64,000 nt of DNA from Zestosphaera sp. (GTDB taxonomy: Archaea; Thermoproteota; Thermoprotei_A; Sulfolobales; NBVN01). The translations under genes and the position numbers were made by a program. Numbering within the stretch: the stretch's first letter is position 1; each line of letters begins with the position of its first letter. The stretch lies in NCBI GenBank assembly GCA_038727705.1, contig JAVYVJ010000001.1:669924-733923 (forward strand), in the 5' to 3' direction. Below the pieces are notes generated by a model that worked only from the letters and a program-made list of their open reading frames with translations, searched no databases and was not told the origin of the DNA. This document shows positions 18,814-40,723 of the stretch, piece after piece.

Positions 18814-20319
18814 ATGCTCGTTAACGTTAAGATCCTCGATCTCGACGTCGGAGATTTAAGGTTGGTTCTAGTGCCGAGGAACATAGCCGAAAGCATGGGA
18901 ATTGCTGGCGGTCTGAGGGTTAAGCTCAGAAGCGGGGAGAGAACCTCCTCGGCATGGGTTATGGTGAGCGATGTTAAGGATGATGCTATATTATTAAGTA
19001 AGAGTGTTGCGGAGTCGCTAGGTAGCCCTGATAAAGTTGATGCAAGCATACACTCATCAACTCCTGCTGTCGACTACATCAGGAGGAAACTCAGCGGTCT
19101 TAAGCTGGGTCAGGATGAGATATACGTAATCATTAAGGATCTAGTATCTGGTCTCCTAAGCGATGCAGAGATAGCTGCCTTAGTAGCCGCTCAAGCAAGT
19201 GTGGGTATGGATGTAGACGAAATCGTATTCCTAACTAGAGCCATGGTTGAGGCAGGTAACTTACTTAGATTTGAGGAGCCCGCCTACGATATACACTCAA
19301 TCGGCGGGGTGCCGGGGAACTCTAAGGTCTCTTTAGTTGCTGTCCCCATAGTAGCGTCGGCAGGCGTACTTATACCCAAGACTTCCTCAAGAGCGATTAC
19401 GTCACCGGCCGGGACTGCCGACACTATGGAGGTTTTCGCACCTGTCACATTCACGGTTGAGGAGGTATTCAACCTGATTAAGAAGGTAAAGGGATTCATA
19501 ATATGGGGCGGAACCCTCAATCTAGCTCCTGCTGACGACATACTCATACGTGTGGAACATCAGTTAAAGTTGGATCCGGTCTCGCAGATGATAGCTTCGA
19601 TATTATCCAAGAAACTGAGCATGGGGATAAGTAGCTTGATTATAGACATACCTACGGGGAGAGAGGCGAAGGTTGAGAGCGTTGAGGAGGCGCGGAACCT
19701 GTCATCGTTGTTCACTCAGGTAGGGGGCAGGTTAGGGCTTAACTTAAGGTGCGCCATAACATACGGAGGGCAACCTATAGGCTATTCTATAGGTCCTGCG
19801 TTAGAGGCCCAGGAAGCGCTTCAAACCCTTATGGGTGAAGGACCTATGTCGGTGAGGGAGAAGGCCGTAGCTCTATCGGGGTTAGTGCTTGAGATGGCGG
19901 GAGTGGCTCCCAAGGGTGGGGGACGCAAGGTGGCTTCCGACATTCTCGACTCTGGAAAAGCCTACCTGACATTCAAGGCAATCGTGGAGGCTATGGGAGG
20001 TAATCCTAATGTGAGGCCTGAGGAGATACCTGTGGGCAAGTACAAGGCCGAGGTTAAAGCACCTATAGACGGATATGTAACGAATGTCTACAATAAATCA
20101 CTGACACAGTTGGCTGTAGCGGCTGGTGCGCCCTTTGACAAAGGGGCTGGTGTGAAGCTTCATGTAAAGACTGGCCATAAGGTCAGGGAGGGGCAGTTGC
20201 TTCTCGAAATTTATAGCAATTCGGAAAGTCTTCTTGACGAAGCGTTGGAATTGATCAGCAAGCTAAGACCAATAAGCATCGAAGGAATGTTGTTGGAGAC
20301 CTACCCGGAGTACATCTAA
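18814..20319 (+). CDS. deoA: AMP phosphorylase (thymidine phosphorylase family)
   Basis: Catalyses AMP + phosphate to adenine + ribose-1,5-bisphosphate, the first step of the archaeal nucleotide salvage route that ends with type III RuBisCO. An archaeal N-terminal domain (about 85 residues) precedes the phosphorylase core with IGGVPGNSKVSL, PKTSSRAITSPAGTADTMEV (phosphate and base site) and the C-terminal barrel-sandwich domain. About 501 residues, typical of AMP phosphorylase and longer than bacterial thymidine phosphorylase. The start is the ATG at 18814 with AAGGTGAT five bases upstream; 16 upstream in-frame codons are not part of the family. The partner isomerase and RuBisCO genes are not in the window. 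Confidence 0.9.
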   Translation: MLVNVKILDLDVGDLRLVLVPRNIAESMGIAGGLRVKLRSGERTSSAWVMVSDVKDDAILLSKSVAESLGSPDKVDASIHSSTPAVDYIRRKLSGLKLGQDEIYVIIKDLVSGLLSDAEIAALVAAQASVGMDVDEIVFLTRAMVEAGNLLRFEEPAYDIHSIGGVPGNSKVSLVAVPIVASAGVLIPKTSSRAITSPAGTADTMEVFAPVTFTVEEVFNLIKKVKGFIIWGGTLNLAPADDILIRVEHQLKLDPVSQMIASILSKKLSMGISSLIIDIPTGREAKVESVEEARNLSSLFTQVGGRLGLNLRCAITYGGQPIGYSIGPALEAQEALQTLMGEGPMSVREKAVALSGLVLEMAGVAPKGGGRKVASDILDSGKAYLTFKAIVEAMGGNPNVRPEEIPVGKYKAEVKAPIDGYVTNVYNKSLTQLAVAAGAPFDKGAGVKLHVKTGHKVREGQLLLEIYSNSESLLDEALELISKLRPISIEGMLLETYPEYI

Positions 20320-21922: not shown

Positions 21923-23312
21923 TCAGCCGAGTTCACTTAGGATTTGCTGATATCTCTGCGTAACCGCTTGACTCCAGGCTAGCTTGTATAGGTCTATCGC
22001 ACTAGGATTCTGCGCTATTGCGTTCGTCACTCTTACCGCATCCTCCTCTGTAAACTTGAGAGTCTGTTTGGTTATGGGGTCTATGTACGTGAGTGGTTCG
22101 CTTAATCTATTCACGTAGCGGTTGAATTGATCCTGTGTTATCTGTCCCTTGAGGTACTTATCCACTAACCTAACCCAGACCTGCTTTAACTCGCTGTTGA
22201 GATCTACTAAGACTGACTTGAAGTAGTATATCACCGCCTTCTCATAGGAGAGGGCTACATTATCATCGAACTGTATCCCGACCGTCCTGTTTATCTCTAG
22301 AAACGCTTGGTAGAGGTCTTGTCTTTTCATCCCTTCAGGAGTTTCGAAGGCTCTTGGATTTACTGGAAGCCTATTTATATCTGGGTTGAACCAGACCTTC
22401 CACTGTCCCTCGGTGAGAACCCAAGCTATGAAGGCCTACGCCGCCTCAGGGTAGCGTGAAGTAGCCAGAAGGGCGATAGGATCTCCGTTAACTATGGTCT
22501 CACCTGCAGGTATTATGTATTTACAGTCTGGGTTCTGGTAGTGTGCTGTGTATCCGTAGAAGTCAATGGTAATTCCTACATCAACCTCACCTATAATTAC
22601 TCCCTCACGGACGTCTGCAGAGCCTGAATATACTTTAGAGTTTGCCGCCATAGTCGTTAATACTTTCCAGCCCTCATCCCACCCGTAAGCCTGAAGTATT
22701 ATTTCATACATCCTTTATTGCTTGTTGATTGAGTCGGATCGGCTATGCCTACTGCCCAACTTCCTAAGCTAACCAACTTCTTAGCATAGTCAATATTGCC
22801 TAAATCCCTCCAACTACCTGGTTGAGGCAGGCCGTAGTTAGCCAGCGTTCTTGTGTTGATAGTAAAGCCGAATGAAGACATGGCTGCAGCAACCCAATAT
22901 ATTCTACCATCAGAGCCTACTCTCTTCATGGGGGCCCCTGCAATGTAATCAGGGATCTGACTAACGGCCTCTAGGACCTCTGGTGATGTTAGAGGGGCGA
23001 GAAGACCTGCCTGATACACGGTATCGAAGAGTGTAGGACCACCACCCCATGCCACGTCGTAGTCCTTTTTCTTTATTGTGTCAACCCACCACCCAGCCTC
23101 TATGTACTTAAACTCGACATTCTTAATGTTATATTTTTAGCAATGCCAGACTCTAGGAAAGCTCTCCTAGCAATATCCTGTATATCACCTGAATGCCTGG
23201 TTATAACATACAACACTATGCCATCACTAGGCGTTGGTGTTGGTGTTGTTGGTTTAGGCGTTGTAGGGGTCGTTGTAGGTCTCGTTCTTGTGCGGAGAAA
23301 GTGACATTGCAT
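21923..23312 (-). pseudogene. decayed ABC transporter solute-binding protein
   Basis: Four frame segments read as one binding protein of the iron/spermidine-like class. They are, in order: a Thr/Pro-rich linker then IVLYVITRHSGDIQDIARRA (23312-23135); after a one-base shift near 23135, IKNVEFKYIEAGWWVDTIKK and VAWGGGPTLFD; after a second shift near 22710, YEIILQAYGWDEGW; then an in-frame TAG at 22435-22437; then AFIAWVLTEGQWKVWFNPD and a C-terminal helical part to a normal stop. The N-terminal membrane signal is also missing: the frame starts directly in basic residues before the linker. Two frameshifts, one nonsense codon and a lost signal make function very unlikely. No permease or ATPase for it is nearby. 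Confidence 0.85.
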
Positions 23313-34597: not shown

Positions 34598-35416
34598 CTA
34601 CTTTATAAATCCTAACGCCTTCAAATACTTTATCAAATCCTCCGGCAGGAGTACACGAGCATCTCGTGCTACTTCCTGCGCTATCAGTGCTGTGTACGTT
34701 GACGTAAGCGAGTACTTCCTTAACAGACTGACATCACTCAACACATCTCTGGTCTCCCCATCAGCTACCACTCGTCCTGAATGCATGACAATAACTCTCT
34801 CAGAGTACTTGGAGAGCAACTCCACATCGTGAGTGACTAGCACTACGGTTGCCCCGCCCTCTCTTAAGCGCCTCAACACTTCTATAAATTGCACTGAACG
34901 ATACCAATCTTGGCCTGTGGTGGGCTCGTCGACTATGAAATTCCTGGTTCCCGCCAACATGTAGGACGCAAGCAACACCCTTAACTTCATGTACCTAGGT
35001 AGGCTAAGAACCGGTTTCTCAAGTAGATCATCACCTATCCCCACCTGCTTTAAAATTTCATTAAGCCTGATCTTGGTCAGCTCCTTCTCAACCCCAATAA
35101 CTCTTGCTGTGAAGAGAATCTCGCTGAGTACCGTTACGTTGAGCAACTGCGTGTTGACGTCCTGGGAGATAAATCCGATAAGTCTCACTAGGTCGCGTCT
35201 CCCGTATTCACTAATATTCCTGCCTTTAACCAACACTGAACCTGATGAGGGTTTAATTAAACCGGCTATGCATCTAACCAATGTGGTCTTACCGGAGCCG
35301 TTGTTGCCTAGAATACCCACGAACTCTCCCTCTTTGATGGCCAGGTCTACTCCACTTAAAGCTTTCGTGCCGTCAGGATACTCGTACGCCAGGTCTCTGG
35401 TCTCAACTAAGTACAT
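34598..35416 (-). CDS. ecfA2: ECF transporter ATPase, second subunit (EcfA2-like)
   Basis: ATPase of an energy-coupling factor importer, with Walker A GNNGSGKTT and Walker B NFIVDEPTTGQDW. The signature motif is degenerate: where LSGGQ is expected the protein reads LSLPRYMKLR. The H-loop LVTHD is intact. This fits an asymmetric ATPase pair in which only one composite site is fully canonical. The start is the ATG at 35416, overlapping ecfA1 by 14 bases; a GTG five codons upstream is in frame. Last gene of the S-T-A1-A2 operon. Confidence 0.87.
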   Translation of the reverse strand: MYLVETRDLAYEYPDGTKALSGVDLAIKEGEFVGILGNNGSGKTTLVRCIAGLIKPSSGSVLVKGRNISEYGRRDLVRLIGFISQDVNTQLLNVTVLSEILFTARVIGVEKELTKIRLNEILKQVGIGDDLLEKPVLSLPRYMKLRVLLASYMLAGTRNFIVDEPTTGQDWYRSVQFIEVLRRLREGGATVVLVTHDVELLSKYSERVIVMHSGRVVADGETRDVLSDVSLLRKYSLTSTYTALIAQEVARDARVLLPEDLIKYLKALGFIK

Positions 35417-36272
35417 TGTGACCCACTCCACTGGCTTTGTTCAGGAGTTGCTTCATATCCTGAATCCTCAGGTCGTAGTCTGCGAGAATCCTGTGTTGCA
35501 ATAGGTATTTCTGCACCCTCACCAGCTCAGGAACCCTGATTAAGTCTTCATAGTCGGGTGGTAATCTCTTGAAGAACTCGTTCGGTTCCTCAGCCAACAC
35601 TATCCTACCACTATACATCAACGCGACTCTGGACGCATAGGGCAGAAACACGTCCATTCTATGCTCTATGACTACGGTGGTCACTCTGAAGCTACGCCTC
35701 AGTGATTCTATAGACTTTACCACTTCGTTAACACCTACCCAGTCAAGGTTCGAGAGCGGCTCATCAAGAATTAATATTTTTGGTCTTGATGCCAGAGCTG
35801 CAGCAATAGCTACTCTCTGCTTCTGACCGCTACTCAACTCGTAAGGGGATTTAATTAAGAAGGAGGGATCCAGACCTACTTGACTCAAAGACCAAACCAC
35901 TCTCTCACGAATCTCCTCGGCGCTGAAACCTAGGAGCTTGAGACGTAGTGAGATCTCATCTTCAACGCTCATAGTCAGGAACTGCATTTCAGGGTCTGAG
36001 GACACGAATCCCACATACTCTGACAAGTGGTATGGTCTAACAGACCTCACGCTATTGCCTAGGACCCTAACATCGCCGTCCATAAAGCCTCTATAGCTGT
36101 TGGGTATCAGCCCAGTCATACTTCTAGCCAAGGTAGTCTTTCCAGCCTCGTTAGGGCCTGTTATGATCACTAGCTCATTCTCCTCCACACATAAATTGAC
36201 GCCCTTTAGGGTCCAGTCAGAAGACGCCTCATACATCCACCACAGATTTTTAACCTCTATTATGCAGGACAT
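35403..36272 (-). CDS. ecfA1: ECF transporter ATPase, first subunit (EcfA1-like)
   Basis: ATPase with Walker A GPNEAGKTT, a complete signature LSSGQKQR, Walker B ILILDEPLSNLDW and H-loop VVIEHR. The Glu in Walker A in place of the usual small residue is a mild variant. 289 residues. It overlaps ecfT by 13 bases. It docks onto the T protein and powers vitamin or metal uptake through the S component. Confidence 0.9.
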   Translation of the reverse strand: MSCIIEVKNLWWMYEASSDWTLKGVNLCVEENELVIITGPNEAGKTTLARSMTGLIPNSYRGFMDGDVRVLGNSVRSVRPYHLSEYVGFVSSDPEMQFLTMSVEDEISLRLKLLGFSAEEIRERVVWSLSQVGLDPSFLIKSPYELSSGQKQRVAIAAALASRPKILILDEPLSNLDWVGVNEVVKSIESLRRSFRVTTVVIEHRMDVFLPYASRVALMYSGRIVLAEEPNEFFKRLPPDYEDLIRVPELVRVQKYLLQHRILADYDLRIQDMKQLLNKASGVGHNVLS

Positions 36273-37135: not shown

Positions 37136-37730
37136 TTAAGTCAACCACCCCTTACAGAAAGCCCTGTGATTAACTACCATCGGTGAGAGCCCCTTAAGTA
37201 CGGGCACCCCAACTGAGACTGCCGGTAAGACATTACCTAGGAACCATGAAGCCATAACGCCATAATATATCTCCCCCGTTATAAAGCCCCATGAAAGCAT
37301 TGCTGTAGTACCGAGATAGGCCCCTAACACGTTATTAAATATCACGCATGATATGATGAAGGTAATCCAGTCACGACTTGATCTGAGTCTGGGATCAGCC
37401 TTAAGAAGTCTAAAGGCGAGGGCGGGAATCAACGACTGCACGAGATTAGCTGGAAGTAATGATATGCTGATCGATATAGGTATCCCTCCAGTCAAGTCTC
37501 CTACGATTGGGAAGAAAACGCCGGCAAGAACCCCCCATAAGCCGAACCACACTCCGCCAAGTATTTGGATCACCACCGCCAAGTAGAACCATGAAATACC
37601 ATAACTAACTTGAAGAAAGCTACTTAGAGTTGCTGAGAGAGCCCCTAACGCACTTAGGAAAACAAAAACAACTACGTGGACGACCCCCCCAACTTCTCTC
37701 CTCGTCTTTCCTCACATTCCAGATGCTCAT
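37136..37730 (-). CDS. ECF transporter S (substrate) component, with a one-base frameshift
   Basis: Membrane protein of about 197 residues once a frameshift is bridged. Translation should begin at the ATG at 37730 (MSIWNVRKDEERSW), which has a strong GGTGG site five bases upstream and a TATA box at 37766-37773. The frame breaks in a run of seven G (minus strand, 37684-37690). Removing one G joins it to VVHVVVFVFLSALGALSATL and on to LGGVWFGLWGVLAGVFFP and the rest of a six-segment S protein. As sequenced, only a TTG well inside the protein could start the downstream frame. Directly upstream of ecfT, so this is its likely substrate subunit. Substrate unknown. A sequencing error, slippage or a real loss are all possible. 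Confidence 0.75.
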
Positions 37731-37765
37731 CCAAACCACCATATAGATTTAATCAGCTAACTCAC

Positions 37766-37773
37766 CTTATAAC
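37766..37773 (-). promoter_or_regulatory. TATA box of the ECF operon
   Basis: GTTATAAG on the minus strand. A transcript starting 25 bases downstream would leave a leader of about 14 bases containing the GGTGG site before the ATG at 37730. Confidence 0.5.
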
Positions 37774-37938: not shown

Positions 37939-39201
37939 TTAATGTGCAAGGTCTTCATATATGAGTCCTGTAATCTCTGCTACGTAACGTAAGTCCAACT
38001 CGTAGTCGCCGAGGGCTAGAACATAGTGATTTCCAATCGGGTTTGACAGGATCTGCGATGTGACTTCAGATCCCCCCGACACCTTTACTTTAAGTTGAGT
38101 TCTGCAGTGCTTGCTACTTAACGGCTCTCCATCTATTACTGTACCCCTGATTATGCGTAGGGTATTCGAGAGAGGGTCTAGCTTAACGAGCGTGACGGGA
38201 GAACCTCTAGGTATATGGCCCGCTATCCCAACGCCTACCCCTGACTCGAAGTGCGTGTCCAGCCCATACTTACACGTCATTCCCAATGCAATGCTGCAGT
38301 GGGTGATGAGGATCTCCTCACGCTCAACCCATGAAATGTTGCCCATGAAGACAGGCCCCTTAGTCAATTCCTTAAGGATTGCCATAGTAACCAGTGCCGA
38401 GAGATCCCCTTCACATCCTGCTACTAAACCCTCGCTATTAAGTAGCGAGAGCGCTAGGCATGCAGTGGTTCCTAAGTCCCTTATGAGGTCGAAACACCGT
38501 ATCGTGAGAGCTTTTAGCCCATGTCGAGCTATGAGTCTCTTAAGGGATACGTAGAGCTTGATAGCCTTCCGGACTTCCGAGGATGGCACCTTGACCATGA
38601 CGGCATTCTCAATAACTTTCCCAGTTAATTCAGCGACCTCCTCATCACCTATGTTGGCGAACAACTCTATAACTTCATTCATATTAATTCTAACGATTCT
38701 GAGGCCAGGCAGTAATTGCCTCAGGAGCTCTCCAACCTCGTTAGTGGCGCTATAGACCAACCATGGGGAAGGCTCTCCAATAATGCCTAGTACGTACTTG
38801 CCTACGCTATCAACGGTTCTCCAGGCATTAATGAAGCTTAGAGCATTCTGCGACAGCGGCCATTCAGCTATAAGTGTTGCAGGTCTCTCAGCAAGTCTCA
38901 GCATGGAGTACGCTTCCAGCGAGGCGGGCAGACTATTCATCTGATTGTGCGGTAATATAAGTGTGAACCTGGCCTTCCCAGCGAGCTCTACGATCAGCTC
39001 CTCAGTGCCCCCGGTTATCGGAGCCACCACCGCTAAGTCGTCAGCAGTTATCTGAGCCTTGTCGACGTGCTCACGCGTCGTTATTAGGCCAAGTATTTCA
39101 TCAACCGGCAGTTTCGCACTTAAGTACTGTAGGAGTACCTCAGAGACTTGTTCAGGGTTATGGAGGGGAGAGGCTACGGGTATTAGGTATGACTTACCCA
39201 C
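37939..39201 (-). CDS. L-fucose/L-arabinose isomerase-like protein
   Basis: About 420 residues with the layout of FucI/AraA-like sugar isomerases: an N-terminal Rossmann-like part (VAPITGGTEELIVELA), then CFDLIRDLGTTACLALSLLN, the GCEGDLSALVTMAI block that carries the acidic metal ligands, and a late His in ITHCSIALGM. Archaeal members are only distantly related to bacterial isomerases and their substrates are not established. The start is the GTG at 39201, with AGGTGAT four bases upstream, ten bases after the radical SAM stop; an upstream in-frame start would overlap that gene. Confidence 0.72.
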   Translation of the reverse strand: MGKSYLIPVASPLHNPEQVSEVLLQYLSAKLPVDEILGLITTREHVDKAQITADDLAVVAPITGGTEELIVELAGKARFTLILPHNQMNSLPASLEAYSMLRLAERPATLIAEWPLSQNALSFINAWRTVDSVGKYVLGIIGEPSPWLVYSATNEVGELLRQLLPGLRIVRINMNEVIELFANIGDEEVAELTGKVIENAVMVKVPSSEVRKAIKLYVSLKRLIARHGLKALTIRCFDLIRDLGTTACLALSLLNSEGLVAGCEGDLSALVTMAILKELTKGPVFMGNISWVEREEILITHCSIALGMTCKYGLDTHFESGVGVGIAGHIPRGSPVTLVKLDPLSNTLRIIRGTVIDGEPLSSKHCRTQLKVKVSGGSEVTSQILSNPIGNHYVLALGDYELDLRYVAEITGLIYEDLAH

Positions 39202-39211
39202 AGTTATCACC

Positions 39212-40723
39212 TCATAATCTGGCCAGTTCTTCAAGCTGAGGTCTCCATTTATCCACCTTATGCTTAACGTACGCAGTGAAGAACTTAAGCATTACTCTTA
39301 TGGGTAGGTGTTTGAGTCCCTTCATATAGAACTCATCCATTATCCTTTCAGCCCAGTAGATGGAATGATCAAGCGTTTTAAGCATAACCTCCACGTGCTC
39401 CCCCTTAACAGCCTCCCTCCGGAACCAGTCCCTGTTCTTGAGTGCTCCCATAGGGACGAAGAACATAGGTACTATCAAGCTTCTGTAATGCCGCACCCTA
39501 TCTAGAAGTTCCATGGTCTTAACTAGGTCGTCAGGGGTTTCTTCAGGGATTCCGAGTATAAGGGTAACGGCAGGGATGATCCTATTCTCATGCATTATTC
39601 CTAGGGCATCTTCAACTACCTCAGGCCATCTTTCGGGCTGGTATGGGGCTGCCTTAGCAGGCATTATCCTCCTGGCTAGGTTAGGACTTCCAGTCTCAAG
39701 GCCTACCTCAACCCCTAGGTAATTCTGTTTGTCGTATAGTATTTCATTCATCAGCTTAGATATTAGTCTGTAGTTATCTTCAGCGAACTTAGTTGCGGCA
39801 AAGCTTGTATGGGCCCACGCTATACTCCCAGGAATTAGCTTCTTCACACGTTCGTGTAGCCTGATTAGAGGTTCCTCTCTCGGCTTCACGCCCTCGGCAC
39901 CGTAGAGTAGCACGTCCTCGCTATGCAGTATCACGTTATCAACGCCATTGCTTACATTGATGCTGATCTCCGACTCTATCCTTTCTAGTGGGATGTTCCT
40001 AAGCGGTCTTAGAGTCACTGAGCAGAATCTACACCCTCTTGGACAGCCTCTCATGATCTCCACTAAGCCGTTCACGCTAGCCTTCCTAATCACCGGTATT
40101 TCGTCTATGGAAGGGGCTTCATGAGGTCCCACGAAAACATACTGCGGTAGCTTCTCATCATTCAGAGCCTTCTTAACTAAATCGCCTATCACCGACTCGG
40201 CCTCACCATCAATCACTGTGTGGACCCCAAACTCCCTCCACAACTCGACCTCCCACAACCATTGCCATGCTGCAGGACCACCGACTATGATCTTGACCCC
40301 TCGCTCCCTGGCCTTACGCACAGCTTCACTCCTCATAAACCTTATGAATGACTTCCTGTTGACAGGCTCCTCACCAGTTATGAACCACCACTCACTGCTA
40401 GGCGGTCCATATGCGAAGTAGTCGTGATGCCCTATCATGAGGACTTTCATCGTGTCCAGGTGCTTGCTAACATGGTCGGGATCGATAACTGCAGCACTAT
40501 ATCCTAGGTCCAGAAGCTTAGCTTCGATCTTCCTCAGGCCGTAGGGCGCCTCGACAGGTCTTCCCAATTCATCGACCCTGACCTTTGGCGCCGCTATCCA
40601 CATCCACAGGAATTCAGGTATGCCTGTGGCAGGTCCTGTGGTCATGAAGCCCAAGAACTCCTTACCCCTGTGATTAGACATCATCGTTCTGTCGGCAGTT
40701 ATAACTACCTCGAAACCTGTCAT
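39212..40723 (-). CDS. B12-binding domain radical SAM protein
   Basis: 503 residues: an N-terminal cobalamin-binding-like region (about 1-200, with VIIVGGPAAWQWL-type Rossmann elements) and a radical SAM barrel with the cluster motif CPRGCRFC. The N-terminal ITADRTMMSNHRG opening resembles archaeal B12 radical SAM proteins that modify membrane lipids (GDGT ring synthase and relatives), but the match is by recall and the substrate is unknown. ATG start overlapping the stop of the small upstream gene (ATGA) with GGTGG upstream. Confidence 0.8.
   Translation of the reverse strand: MTGFEVVITADRTMMSNHRGKEFLGFMTTGPATGIPEFLWMWIAAPKVRVDELGRPVEAPYGLRKIEAKLLDLGYSAAVIDPDHVSKHLDTMKVLMIGHHDYFAYGPPSSEWWFITGEEPVNRKSFIRFMRSEAVRKARERGVKIIVGGPAAWQWLWEVELWREFGVHTVIDGEAESVIGDLVKKALNDEKLPQYVFVGPHEAPSIDEIPVIRKASVNGLVEIMRGCPRGCRFCSVTLRPLRNIPLERIESEISINVSNGVDNVILHSEDVLLYGAEGVKPREEPLIRLHERVKKLIPGSIAWAHTSFAATKFAEDNYRLISKLMNEILYDKQNYLGVEVGLETGSPNLARRIMPAKAAPYQPERWPEVVEDALGIMHENRIIPAVTLILGIPEETPDDLVKTMELLDRVRHYRSLIVPMFFVPMGALKNRDWFRREAVKGEHVEVMLKTLDHSIYWAERIMDEFYMKGLKHLPIRVMLKFFTAYVKHKVDKWRPQLEELARL

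Follow-up and report, generated by a model that had tools for sequence, protein, structure and literature searches.

Single-base breaks of archaeal genes have been described before. In Pyrococcus furiosus, a one-nucleotide insertion splits a chitinase gene (PF1233/PF1234) that is intact in a relative and is otherwise highly conserved; the authors re-sequenced the insertion and, in their account of this gene, left open whether it is a recent loss or is bypassed by frameshifting (PMC3575233). In Saccharolobus, a single base within a homopolymer interrupts the alpha-fucosidase gene fucA1, whose expression needs a programmed -1 shift; the slippery site and its surroundings are conserved across the Sulfolobales (PMC8211752). 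Conservation of the site across homologues is given as the mark of programmed frameshifting (PMC3711429, Table 1), and, as summarized in PMC8037382, only stop readthrough and -1 frameshifting have been unequivocally shown in archaea.

Here we describe a gene of the hot-spring archaeon Zestosphaera sp., predicted to encode the substrate-capturing subunit of a nutrient importer, that is split by a single base within a G run. As with the chitinase gene, its counterparts in relatives are unbroken and the rest of the gene is well conserved, but here the indel is read from the assembly, whereas the chitinase insertion was confirmed by re-sequencing. As in fucA1, the break lies in a homopolymer, but the tract is not conserved and a +1 shift would be needed. 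The operon resembles known energy-coupling factor (ECF) transporters in its gene order, its CbiQ-type T component, its two ECF ATPases, and a small hydrophobic S component, but the family of this S component scores below the cut-off of every ECF S profile. We judge that an unremarkable ECF-type operon has most likely acquired a slippage indel that occurs in this genome only, which is an ordinary kind of event.

The window (the whole stretch of 64,000 nucleotides that we analyzed) is part of contig 1 of a 1.59-Mb genome in four contigs. The operon runs on the minus strand in the order S-T-A1-A2, from 37730 down to 34598, and has these features:

37767 to 37772, minus strand: TTATAA, a probable TATA box, which aligns with TTTATAA of the congener G004 in the DNA alignment
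37736 to 37740, minus strand: GGTGG ribosome-binding site (from the sequence), 5 nt before the ATG
37136 to 37730, minus strand: gene for the ECF S component, divided between two frames by an indel of one base (from the open reading frames and the congener alignment)
37620 to 37730, minus strand: reading frame of 36 codons, from ATG at 37730 to TAG at 37622-37620
37684 to 37690, minus strand: run of seven Gs, the site of the frame change, which is four Gs in congeners (DNA alignment)
37136 to 37684, minus strand: open frame for the body of the S protein, with the 182 codons that follow the run and then the stop (from the frame and the comparison with congeners)
37580 to 37582, minus strand: TTG (from the sequence), the first possible start in the body frame and a leucine codon
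36260 to 37132, minus strand: ECF T component (CbiQ family), intact (PF02361, E = 2.4e-12)
35403 to 36272, minus strand: ECF ATPase A1, intact (matches ECF ATPase profiles below their curated cut-offs)
34598 to 35431, minus strand: ECF ATPase A2, intact (likewise matching ECF ATPase profiles below their curated cut-offs)

The S gene is split between two frames by one base. As the original prediction had it, an extra G in the run of seven is responsible: the frame that begins with ATG 37730 stops after 36 codons, and the rest of the protein lies in another frame. This body frame follows a nearby upstream TGA and contains no ATG, GTG, or TTG before 37582, which leaves it without an alternative upstream start. 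The run occupies nucleotides 41 to 47 of the gene, and the ATG frame ahead of it also has the score of a coding frame: +4.6 bits for 45 nt, compared with -13.8 and +1.2 for the other frames. Reading six Gs joins 15 codons to 182 and restores the expected normal length, 197 codons, which is the length of the S gene in each of three congeners (G001, G002, and G004). The three downstream genes are all intact. The proposed promoter held up in part: the GGTGG site and the ATG are sound, while the likely TATA box is TTATAA at 37772-37767 and not the TATAT that adjoins GGTGG.

We compared the body frame to 41 genomes, and 6 of them matched, including the genome itself. The other 5 (of 40) contain six homologous loci, and all six are open across the break point, have the same N-terminus, and keep the order S-T-A1-A2. 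The genes of the congeners G002, G004, and G001 begin with ATG, GTG, or TTG where the window has ATG 37730. When the DNA of the window is aligned to these three congeners, the coding sequence shows a single gap, one column wide, which falls at the G run (GGGG in the congeners); all other gaps are in the flanking DNA, before the start codon or beyond the stop codon. The idea that homologues start naturally at the downstream TTG, which was named beforehand as a point that would count against the split, can be dismissed, because the congeners carry TTA or CTA where the window has TTG 37582, and invariant residues lie upstream of this codon. We also searched 398 genomes of the phylum with a seven-member profile, which matched 49 of them (the genome itself included). 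Among the 45 rows from other genomes that start at profile position 19 or earlier, none contains a stop. Two further rows do contain stops, but both are partial, C-terminal matches: G416, with one TAG, and G088, which is weak and has four. Judging from these alignments, the frame change is a singleton.

The S gene shows no sign of decay. Its protein, in the frame after the run, is 69 to 70% identical to those of the congeners, which is more than chance would give. When the four components are compared, identity to the congeners is highest for S (0.70 to 0.71; T, 0.49 to 0.53; A1, 0.57 to 0.59; A2, 0.65 to 0.66). Differences are concentrated at third codon positions (0.53 to 0.60, versus 0.20 at positions 1 and 2), and in the S frame we found neither the further lesions nor the relaxed constraint that would be expected of a pseudogene. 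Because S is the best conserved component and T, A1, and A2 are intact, the sequences suggest that the break is very young, artefactual, or tolerated by being partly bypassed.

Since the gene is unbroken in every relative that we examined, the most likely explanations are that slippage, an ordinary kind of mutation, occurred here recently or that a sequencing error was made at this one place. We think there is about an even chance that the S gene recently gained one G by slippage. As the alignment suggests, synonymous changes would first have merged the codons for Trp-Gly-Val into a long G tract near the 5' end of the gene, which would then have been lengthened by one base. If the indel is present in the living cell and not just in the assembly, then the main translation product would now be a dead-end peptide of 36 residues, so the cell would lack the transporter, or would make little of it if the tract causes slippage of RNA polymerase or of the ribosome. 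This explanation fits the single-column gap in a gene that is otherwise collinear over 197 codons and is broken here in no other homologue. Also, the genome contains at least one apparently genuine pseudogene with multiple lesions, in the same window (see below), and a low number of T components is consistent with the erosion of ECF systems. However, the lack of decay in S is just as compatible with an error or with a gene that is bypassed. If real, this is one more recent inactivation of a gene by a single base in a hyperthermophilic archaeon, and a caution to look at the reads before a gene is called broken.

Alternatively, the true run may be six Gs and the S gene intact, with the seventh G arising from a sequencing or assembly error; we consider this a serious explanation, though somewhat less probable than slippage in the cell. 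A frame change that occurs only once, in a homopolymer, within a gene that is otherwise fully conserved is what such an error would produce, and singleton frameshifted genes are described as likely to reflect either an indel mutation or a sequencing error (PMC3711429). On the other hand, G runs do not seem to be miscounted elsewhere. Across 400 kb of the assembly, we compared codon scores on both sides of each G or C run of at least 6 (334 run-by-strand counts, of which 84 could be scored), and the frame was the same on both sides in all 84. This stretch contains seven G or C runs of length 7: the one in the S gene, one in 16S rRNA, and five in open frames of 300 to 726 amino acids, all five without a break. 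Miscounting of G runs as a general fault of the assembly is thus unlikely, although by our calculation, with just five unbroken runs, as many as about 45% of runs of seven could still be miscounted. Eleven apparent frame changes at G or C runs of length 5 fit gene junctions, given the stops and starts that we saw nearby.

We also compared 403 frames of G002 to the same 400 kb, of which about 147 kb was covered, and looked for hits that were split between frames. (This method is blind to breaks within about 20 codons of the end of a gene, and it missed the S gene itself.) Four frame-changing split hits were found in the Zestosphaera genome: two are real breaks, and two are in frames that we rejected as non-coding by inspection, one being antisense-like and the other lying upstream of a gene, beside a tRNA-like end. 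Two split hits in G002 correspond to one place, and Rfam identified no RNA gene in the matching stretch of the Zestosphaera genome (L019).

One of the two real breaks is in a small helical protein gene (L036, about 19440-19540; about 756440-756540 of contig C1), which has one extra base that is not in a homopolymer. Because only about 0.8 kb separates this isolated single-base break from the contig end, the assembly may contain isolated base errors. The other is in the window, at 21923-23204 on the minus strand, in a gene for an extracellular solute-binding protein. Its frame changes near 23133 and again near 22716, and it contains a TAG in frame at 22438-22436. One of its pieces matches SBP_bac_6 (E = 0.00039, 20.4 bits versus a cut-off of 24.6), and its counterpart in G002 is one open frame of 521 codons, stop to stop. 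From its sequence, it looks like a true pseudogene with multiple lesions.

The remaining explanations, switching or recoding at the tract, are unlikely even when taken together. Of the four options in the original prediction, recent loss and sequencing error still stand, but programmed frameshifting and phase variation gained no support: the run is present in no congener, and a +1 shift is needed. Under phase variation, the tract would alternate between six and seven Gs in the population and turn uptake on and off. The tract is placed where a shift silences the gene, and known phase-variable genes include surface transporters (PMC3711429), but a tract that all congeners lack makes this reading very improbable. 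Furthermore, the runs of seven that we sampled are not concentrated at gene starts, and poly(G) tracts are reported not to prefer gene starts (PMC2831843). A literature search for homopolymer mutation in Sulfolobus returned nothing on Sulfolobus mutation spectra.

Under recoding, whether programmed or incidental, +1 ribosomal frameshifting or transcriptional slippage would yield a functional S protein, which would account for the lack of decay. By inspection of the sequence, a tRNA-Gly that is paired with GGG in the P site can move one base on and pair with GGG again. Incidental bypass at G repeats is conceivable in principle, since in laboratory drift, bypass occurred at repeats of 3 to 8 bases, G among them (PMC3812077). 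In addition, the hairpin that the RNA of the window forms around the run is unusually stable (z = -3.2 and -3.0). However, the corresponding RNA of the congeners shows nothing similar (z = -1.0, -1.7, and +1.2), and the stem contains the run, whereas the spacing stated in PMC8211752 would put it 5 to 9 nt ahead of a stem. The site is kept in no homologue: no frame change occurs in the six close homologues or in the 45 phylum-wide rows. We consider recoding as doubtful as phase variation. More specifically, a poly(G) tract that turns the ECF system on and off, or works as a leaky switch for it, by slipped-strand change between six and seven Gs or by +1 recoding in a hairpin peculiar to this species, seems quite improbable; should the tract prove to switch or to be recoded, this would be a rare archaeal example of transport controlled by a homopolymer.

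For the broken gene, no ECF S profile passed its cut-off (the best was the FolT family, TIGR04518, with E = 0.031 and 14.1 bits versus a cut-off of 60), and the Pfam S families matched none of the 21 family members that were scanned. A search of PDB sequences gave no match for S below E = 0.28, and AlphaFold2, with just three sequences, gave a pLDDT of 40.9, too low for comparison with the six-helix fold of S components. But T and/or A components were found within 1.5 kb at 26 of 29 further homologue loci (all except L092, L093, and L099), and these neighbors therefore support an S role for the gene.

Among the 21 members, 5 match the MASE1 sensor domain (best E = 1e-7) and 14 match EspC-type kinases. 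The gene at 37136-37730 and its homologues (L011-L016 and L091-L118) form this archaeal S-component-like family, which is mostly found beside ECF T and A genes. Links between S components and other sensors have been reported, in a main text that makes no mention of MASE1 (PMC11109136), and a literature search that paired MASE1 with energy-coupling factor transporters found no link.

The Zestosphaera genome has two CbiQ-type T components, versus four in G001, five in G002, and four in G004; G003, which is 81% complete, has one. Loss or erosion of ECF systems in this genome is a possible reason. A scan of viral contigs for T components gave no match.

The S gene adjoins a gene at 37939-39234 (minus strand) that resembles sulfoquinovose or arabinose isomerases, and the S paralogue of G002 adjoins another such gene (L016, 7019-8290, plus strand). 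These neighbors hint that the substrate of S may be related to sugars. The two isomerase-like genes are 27.7% identical.
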